Part shown: positions 57,016 to 58,308 of the stretch, in pieces
Numbering within the stretch: the first letter of the stretch is position 1
Layout of the letters: every line of letters begins with the position of its first letter
Origin: Thermodesulfobium narugense DSM 14796
GTDB taxonomy: Bacteria > Thermodesulfobiota > Thermodesulfobiia > Thermodesulfobiales > Thermodesulfobiaceae
NCBI RefSeq assembly: GCF_000212395.1
Contig: NC_015499.1
Location: forward strand, 1 to 64,000
Direction: 5' to 3'
Length of the DNA: 64,000 nt
Notes under the pieces: model-generated
Told to the model about the DNA's origin: nothing
Databases searched by the model: none
Seen by the model: the letters and a program-made list of their open reading frames with translations, nothing else
Made by a program: the position numbers and the translations under genes

Positions 57016-57061
57016 TTAATTTATGTAAATGTATAAAATATTTTGTGTTTTAGGAGGAAAG

Positions 57062-57526
57062 GTGAAGGAATTAACAAATTTAAAGTATTTGCTTATTATC
57101 ACAGCTTTAATTTTGTTGTCTGTAATTTCTTTTTCTACAGATGCCTTTTCGTCTAATCTTGTGGAAGAATATCCAAATGCCTCAATTGATTGGGGTAAAA
57201 ATCAAATAACTGCTATAGGTTTTGGCGTTGGAGGATTTAACAGTGCCGATCCGTTTAAAAGCTCATATGAAGCGGCAATGAAAAACGCAAAAGAAAGAAT
57301 GATCTCTGTAATAATGATGCTAAAAGACTCCAGAGGAGTAAGTTTAAAGCAATTTCTTTCTAATCCCGAAAATATGAACAAACTAAAGGCTTGGATTGAA
57401 ACGCTTGACACTAAGGTTCTAAAATATTCGGACAATAGCGTTAAGGTAATATTAACTGGAACTTTGAAAGATGAACCGAATTCTTTAGAAAAAGCACTTG
57501 GGGTTGAACTACAATCTCCAAATTAA
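57062..57526 (+). CDS. Small secreted protein, LPP20/FlgT-N-like
   Basis: A 154-residue protein from GTG 57062, with AGGAGG 4-5 bases upstream; the longer frame from ATG 57029 lacks a ribosome site. It has a signal peptide (about 1-30, ending STDAFS) without a lipobox Cys. The mature domain (ASIDWGKNQITAIGFGVGG, SSYEAAMKNAKERMISVIM, VKVILTGTLKDE) resembles the LPP20 fold, in which a helix with A-x-x-x-A-x-x-A packs on a sheet. The role is unknown. It sits between lpxD and lpxC, and its last codons overlap the upstream coding part of lpxC. Confidence 0.6.
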   Translation: MKELTNLKYLLIITALILLSVISFSTDAFSSNLVEEYPNASIDWGKNQITAIGFGVGGFNSADPFKSSYEAAMKNAKERMISVIMMLKDSRGVSLKQFLSNPENMNKLKAWIETLDTKVLKYSDNSVKVILTGTLKDEPNSLEKALGVELQSPN

Positions 57527-58308
57527 ATAAAGCAACTTTTGAGGGTATAGGAATTCATACTGGAAAATTTTGTAAGGTTATGGTTTACCCATCAGATGGG
57601 GGTCTTTGGATAAAAAAAGGCGATATGTTTTTTTCGAATTTCCATGATATGCTAGTGCCTTCTGAAAATGCAACCCTTCTAGAAAATGACTATCTAAGAC
57701 TCTCAACTGTAGAACACCTTTTGTGTGCGCTTGCAATGTTAAGCGTCAATGATGCAGTAATTGAGATTGTGGAGGGAGAAGAAGTCCCCATTTTAGACGG
57801 AAGCGCTATAAAATTTTATAAAGTACTATCTGATGTTTTTTCGAAAAAGCATAAGAAAAATATCCTAAAATCAATTAAAAAGCCAATATTTTATATGGAA
57901 GACGAATCTTTTGTTTATTTGTTTCCGCACAAAAGGTTTGAGATTAGAGTTTATCTGGATTATACCTCTAAAGGTCTTGGCCTTCTTAGTGAAGAATTTA
58001 TTTTAGGAAGAGATAAGAGAGAATCTATTCTAAACGCAAGAACTTTTGGGTTTCTCTCGGATTATGAATTGTTGAAATCAAAAGGGAAAGCGCTTGGGGC
58101 AAACTTTGAAAATGTGCTTGTATTTGACAATAAAGGAAAACCATTAAAGAAAATAAGAAGTTTGAAGGAAGCGCAAAGACACAAAATACTTGATTTTATT
58201 GGAGATCTTTATCTTAACGGATTTTTGCCGCGTGCACAGATAGTGGCCGTTAAACCTGGCCATAAAATAAACGCAAAAGTAAGCAAGATGATAAATTTAT
58301 TTGTATAA
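57514..58308 (+). CDS. lpxC: UDP-3-O-acyl-N-acetylglucosamine deacetylase LpxC (start codon unusual)
   Basis: Zinc deacetylase, the first committed step of lipid A synthesis. Zinc ligands and catalytic motifs are present: STVEHLLCAL, VPILDGSA, QRHKILDFIGDLYL and PGHKINAK. The first canonical start in frame is ATG 57580, but the frame is open back to 57508 and encodes the conserved LpxC N-terminus KATFEGIGIHTGKFCKV upstream of it. No ATG, GTG or TTG occurs in that part; ATC at 57514, with GGGG 10 bases before it, is the best candidate and is used here. The total of about 264 residues is short for LpxC. A frameshift from the upstream gene or a sequencing error is also possible. Confidence 0.85.
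   Translation: MSKLNKATFEGIGIHTGKFCKVMVYPSDGGLWIKKGDMFFSNFHDMLVPSENATLLENDYLRLSTVEHLLCALAMLSVNDAVIEIVEGEEVPILDGSAIKFYKVLSDVFSKKHKKNILKSIKKPIFYMEDESFVYLFPHKRFEIRVYLDYTSKGLGLLSEEFILGRDKRESILNARTFGFLSDYELLKSKGKALGANFENVLVFDNKGKPLKKIRSLKEAQRHKILDFIGDLYLNGFLPRAQIVAVKPGHKINAKVSKMINLFV

Follow-up and report, generated by a model that had tools for sequence, protein, structure and literature searches.

A conserved AUC codon as the probable start of lpxC in the genus Thermodesulfobium

Where does translation of lpxC begin in a genome whose lpxC reading frame offers no conventional start codon for the conserved N-terminus of the enzyme? The question is raised by a 64,000-nucleotide stretch of the Thermodesulfobium narugense DSM 14796 chromosome (the whole of which we call the window), and the features needed to follow it are listed here.

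57029..57526, + strand: upstream gene, located between lpxD and lpxC, with a signal-peptide-like N-terminus and without a Pfam match
57505..57507, + strand: TGA that closes the lpxC frame upstream, conserved in 4/4 genomes
57514..58308, + strand: lpxC (UDP-3-O-acyl-GlcNAc deacetylase), 264 aa counted from the proposed ATC start
57544..57564, + strand: GIGIHTG motif near the LpxC N-terminus, placed by direct reading and by alignment with Aquifex LpxC
57580..57582, + strand: ATG, the first canonical in-frame codon, rejected as a start

Read directly, the lpxC frame runs from TGA 57505 through ACT 57508, ACA 57511, ATC 57514, TCC, AAA, TTA and AAT 57526, continues with AAA, GCA, ACT, TTT, GAG and GGT 57544, and goes on with ATA, GGA, ATT, CAT, ACT and GGA 57562, such that ATG, GTG and TTG are all absent ahead of GIGIHTG. 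This codon-by-codon reading confirms the claim of a preliminary description of the locus that the first in-frame ATG, GTG or TTG is ATG 57580, which lies after the motif. The same description had remarked that ATA and ATT codons also occur, and they do, but ATA 57547 and ATT 57553 are situated within GIGIHTG and cannot be its starts.

By the evidence of its translation, the gene encodes a true LpxC, i.e., a predicted deacetylase. The product matches Pfam PF03331 at 195.1 bits (cut-off 27) over profile positions 6-266 of 268, and its nearest solved structure is Aquifex LpxC, with which it aligns from residue 7 of the translated frame and with which its TVEHLL, RHKILDFIGD and GH segments are in register. 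The segments TVEHxL, RHKxxDxIGD and GH, to whose residues we take the zinc-site and catalytic roles of LpxC to belong, are thus all present in this alignment. The gene is single copy in a single-contig genome of 1,898,865 bases and lies inside an envelope cluster that includes bamA-like, ompH-like, lpxD, fabZ, lpxA, kdsA and kdsD/kdsC-like genes, as recognized by Pfam for some of them and by their translations; the names beyond the Pfam-confirmed ones are our presumptive assignments.

We have compared the locus in four genomes, those of the source and of three other species of the genus (one single contig and two drafts), which are also the whole sample of the phylum; two genome-contig scans and one viral scan yielded no further independent relatives. 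The LpxC proteins of the three other species are 82-89% identical to that of the source, and in 4/4 genomes the interval from the upstream TGA to GIGIHTG is free of ATG, GTG and TTG, while the TGA and the codons ATC TCC AAA TTA AAT are unchanged throughout. A relative with a canonical start upstream of the motif, for which the preliminary description had allowed, was therefore not among the related genomes whose start regions were compared. An error that hides a real canonical start could be proposed from one genome alone, and had been so proposed, but the junction is arranged identically in each of the other three species, which removes this option, and we attach a negligible probability to it. 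On this comparison the arrangement conserved in four species, with no canonical start, is real and not an artefact.

Initiation at the internal ATG 57580, as the first canonical codon, is what a simple ORF call would choose, and it would produce a protein without GIGIHTG. The preliminary description had named a Met N-terminus at this position as a finding that would overturn its claim; the ATG is replaced by GAG, however, in two relatives (G002 and G003). The coding segment ahead of it is also, by the pattern of substitutions, under purifying selection, with 6-9 synonymous versus 2-4 amino-acid changes in the first 22 codons from ATC among the more distant pairs. A start at 57580 would moreover cost about 20 bits against an LpxC profile compiled from about 100 further sequences, and its Shine-Dalgarno (SD) pairing is weak, with a scored gap of 14. 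We consider a start there hardly credible.

The search for the start is thereby confined to the codons between the TGA and the motif, where three further features matter.

57500..57507, + strand: SD-like GGGGTTGA (GGAGTTGA in G001), consensus GGRGTTGA, present in 4/4 genomes
57512..57529, + strand: 18-base block CAATCTCCAAATTAAATA, read in two frames, identical in 4 species
57514..57516, + strand: proposed AUC start codon, the sole table 11 start in the interval from the TGA to GIGIHTG, identical in 4/4 genomes

The candidates in this interval are ACT/GCT, ACA/GCA, ATC, TCC, AAA, TTA and AAT, and ATC is the sole one to pair with the initiator tRNA at its first two bases; AUC is also on the NCBI table 11 list of start codons. 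We infer that lpxC is probably translated from AUC 57514 in this genus, giving a product that would begin MSKLNKATFEGIGIHTG... and have 9 residues after the initiator before the motif. Use of a rare start codon, one of the options of the preliminary description, is well supported, and ATC 57514 is conserved in 4 genomes. GGRGUUGA, contained in the 3'-terminal codons of the upstream gene, would position the 30S subunit, with initiator fMet-tRNA pairing to AUC via the first two bases. In vitro, IF3 tolerates only Watson-Crick pairs at the first and second bases of the start codon, and weak pairs at the third base are disfavored at high IF3 (PMC10158994), so that a low output would be expected from AUC.

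The GGGG that had been noted 10 bases ahead of ATC 57514 is indeed there (57500-57503) and forms part of the SD-like element, which ends 6 bases before ATC. Its scored gap of 5 (one unpaired end base counted) falls inside the usual gap of 3-8 in 61 ORFs of the window scored alike, and its duplex is calculated at -7.6 to -8.5 kcal/mol with an anti-SD assumed to be standard; a search of the genome, which is rated 99.99% complete, with a model of bacterial 16S rRNA gave no match. The element is weaker than those at many genes, overlaps conserved codons of the upstream gene, and is equalled in score by 2.9% of coding positions. Any seven random codons have a chance of about 45% of including a near-cognate one, and the presence of such a codon by itself is weak evidence; nor do LpxC profile scores separate the candidate N-termini.

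Sequence constraint around the codon adds to the comparison. The 18-base block is the joint longest invariant run (there is one other 18-base run) within 520 bases that are 74% invariant, and in the last five codons of the upstream gene 5/5 third positions are unchanged, as compared to 29/60 in the codons before them. Sites 57508 and 57511, directly before ATC and synonymous in the upstream gene, vary among the four genomes, with ACT 57508 replaced by GCT in two of them and ACA 57511 by GCA in one. Because the block is invariant from ATC onward and these two sites are variable, an additional constraint, over that imposed by the upstream gene, seems to set in near ATC, on numbers small enough for this to be supporting and not decisive. 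With no canonical codon, a conserved ATC and an SD-like element at an appropriate spacing, lpxC most likely belongs to the class of genes with non-canonical starts.

It is unlikely that another non-canonical codon (ACA 57511, TTA 57523 or AAA 57529), or several of them near the upstream stop, serves instead. Coupling by reinitiation close to the stop of a preceding gene has been proposed (PMC10666635), and TTA 57523 and AAT 57526 are likewise invariant in the 4 genomes, but ACA, TTA and AAA each fail to pair with the initiator tRNA at one of the first two positions, which IF3 bars in vitro (PMC10158994). The codons ACT and ACA are, in addition, those that vary within the genus, and TTA 57523 has little SD pairing.

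The upstream gene bears on the AUC reading in several ways. Its start is probably not ATG 57029 but GTG 57062, which follows GGAGG, and its C-terminus, ALGVELQSPN, is conserved in 4 genomes. Its TAA (57524-57526) begins 10 bases past the A of ATC, giving an overlap of 13 bases with lpxC. Ribosomes that finish the upstream gene a few bases downstream of AUC could help initiation by termination-reinitiation, and we are about evenly divided on whether initiation at lpxC is helped in this manner; efficient overlaps are usually shorter than 13 bases (PMC10666635). To make a canonical codon at this site, 57516 would have to change from C to G, by which a Ser codon (TCT) of the upstream gene would become TGT (Cys), a cost that may partly account for the lack of a canonical start.

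The overlap of the two frames, together with the conserved C-terminus of the upstream protein, might instead be taken to mean that a -1 frameshift joins LpxC to that protein, and frameshifting from the upstream gene was one of the options originally raised. Direct reading from 57508 to 57526, however, found no slippery heptamer of the X XXY YYZ type, the lpxC frame shows no conservation ahead of ATC, and LpxC, a cytoplasmic enzyme, would follow a signal-peptide-like N-terminus that would export it. A fusion of this kind is highly improbable. A different shift is suggested by a short frame that leads exactly into that of lpxC.

57504..57530, + strand: TTG...ATT AAA TAR, a frame of 8 codons, kept in 4/4 genomes

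In this reading, translation would start at TTG 57504 and undergo a +1 shift at AAA-UAR (57525-57530), the ribosome slipping from AAA to AAU at the stop, to make MNYNLQIK-KATFEGIGIHTG (peptide MNYNLQIKKATFE). The TTG and the 8-codon frame to AAA-TAR-A are found in 4/4 genomes, with either TAA or TAG, and the shifted product scores the same as the AUC product (198.3 bits each). Sites of +1 shifting at AAA-UAR have been reported for Euplotes; we know of no bacterial precedent. TTG 57504, on the other hand, lies inside the SD-like GGRGTTGA and by direct reading has no purine-rich SD ahead of it, the slip site has no prfB-like SD beside it, and the amino acids of the TTG frame vary (N/S, Y/C) at just those sites that are synonymous for the upstream gene, such that selection on the frame is not apparent. 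We regard this reading as quite improbable, and return to AUC 57514 as the probable start.

The gene infC is the classic example of a non-canonical start, and to our knowledge few bacterial genes besides it start outside ATG, GTG and TTG. In the four genomes infC reads TCGGAGGTGAAYGTTATAAG, i.e., GGAGGTGAAYGTT-ATA-AG, with an SD of -15.4 kcal/mol before ATA; apart from a GTG inside GGAGGTGA, itself lacking an SD, no canonical codon lies near the protein's start. From this sequence context infC most likely starts at ATA in 4/4 genomes of the genus and, as this ATA stands behind a full SD, the genus very probably accepts ATN starts in one gene or more besides lpxC. A simple ORF call at the infC loci (L006, from the source genome, at about 1237-1260, and L088, L089 and L090) picks the GTG internal to the SD. 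In Streptomyces, ATC is a reported infC start (PMC5472188). The proposed AUC start of lpxC is in this respect a further example of a rare but known type of start signal.

Among LpxC loci the arrangement appears to be rare. Our survey took in about 80 loci from other families and 30 from a single order; where the start region was readable, a canonical codon nearly always precedes the motif, as a rule by 12-16 residues, although long open frames leave some of the true starts unsure and a few loci were unreadable by the motif rule. The exceptions are the study genus (4/4 genomes) and one unrelated genus, in which G064 has an open frame without any canonical codon and its congener G120 is similar, with a single such codon just two residues before the motif. 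That genus (G064, L047/L103; G120, L113) is GC-rich; its lpxC overlaps the end of lpxD (L047), and CTG codons 17 and 14 residues ahead of the motif are candidate starts. Literature searches found no non-canonical lpxC start, and a scan of the 64-kb window found no second non-canonical-start case as convincing as lpxC.

Like infC, with its AUU, AUC or AUA starts, lpxC would be an essential gene in which an SD-like sequence precedes a conserved non-canonical ATN start. The product of infC, however, senses the codon and thereby closes a self-controlling loop, whereas lpxC encodes a metabolic enzyme, has a weaker SD and overlaps an upstream gene. A second comparison is with Streptomyces sigR, which has a GTC start and is repressed by IF3 (PMC5472188). 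The proposed lpxC start resembles that of sigR in being non-canonical, conserved within one genus, missed by standard start calls and presumably of low output, but sigR has a strong AGGAGGTG and experimental proof, and the lpxC start is proposed from comparative evidence. Gene pairs coupled by termination-reinitiation likewise have the second start inside the first gene, a few bases short of its stop codon. Such pairs commonly share 4, 1 or 8 bases and begin the second gene at a canonical codon, in contrast to 13 bases and AUC for lpxC (PMC10666635). The LpxC of Aquifex aeolicus is of the same family, can be aligned nearly end to end and has the N-terminus FEGxGIHTG, and differs in that the study genus has a shorter N-terminus before the motif and no canonical start codon.

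In enterobacteria LpxC is under proteolytic control, and E. coli keeps the enzyme in check by degradation. The LpxC described here stops soon past its last conserved segment, so that the E. coli-type C-terminal tail recognized by FtsH is presumably absent, and a LapB zinc-ribbon profile matched only a RadA-like gene, a hit that speaks neither for nor against LapB-FtsH control. The preliminary description had suggested that a weak start could limit LpxC. By analogy with infC and Streptomyces sigR, genes of an IF3-repressed type with which lpxC shares the class of codon, one may speculate, tentatively, that the weak codon keeps LpxC synthesis low and sensitive to IF3. It is more doubtful still that AUC is a regulatory device which, together with the AUA of infC, would tie the committed step of lipid A synthesis both to the level of IF3 and to the translation of the envelope gene upstream, substituting for the proteolysis of LpxC in enterobacteria.

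Standard start calls truncate genes with non-canonical starts, and catalogue copies of the LpxC of this genus may therefore miss its conserved first segment. If the reading is true, a genus-wide AUC in the sole LpxC gene would mean that a presumably essential, dosage-sensitive enzyme tolerates an inefficient start, and would suggest a translational route for keeping LpxC low where E. coli relies on degradation.
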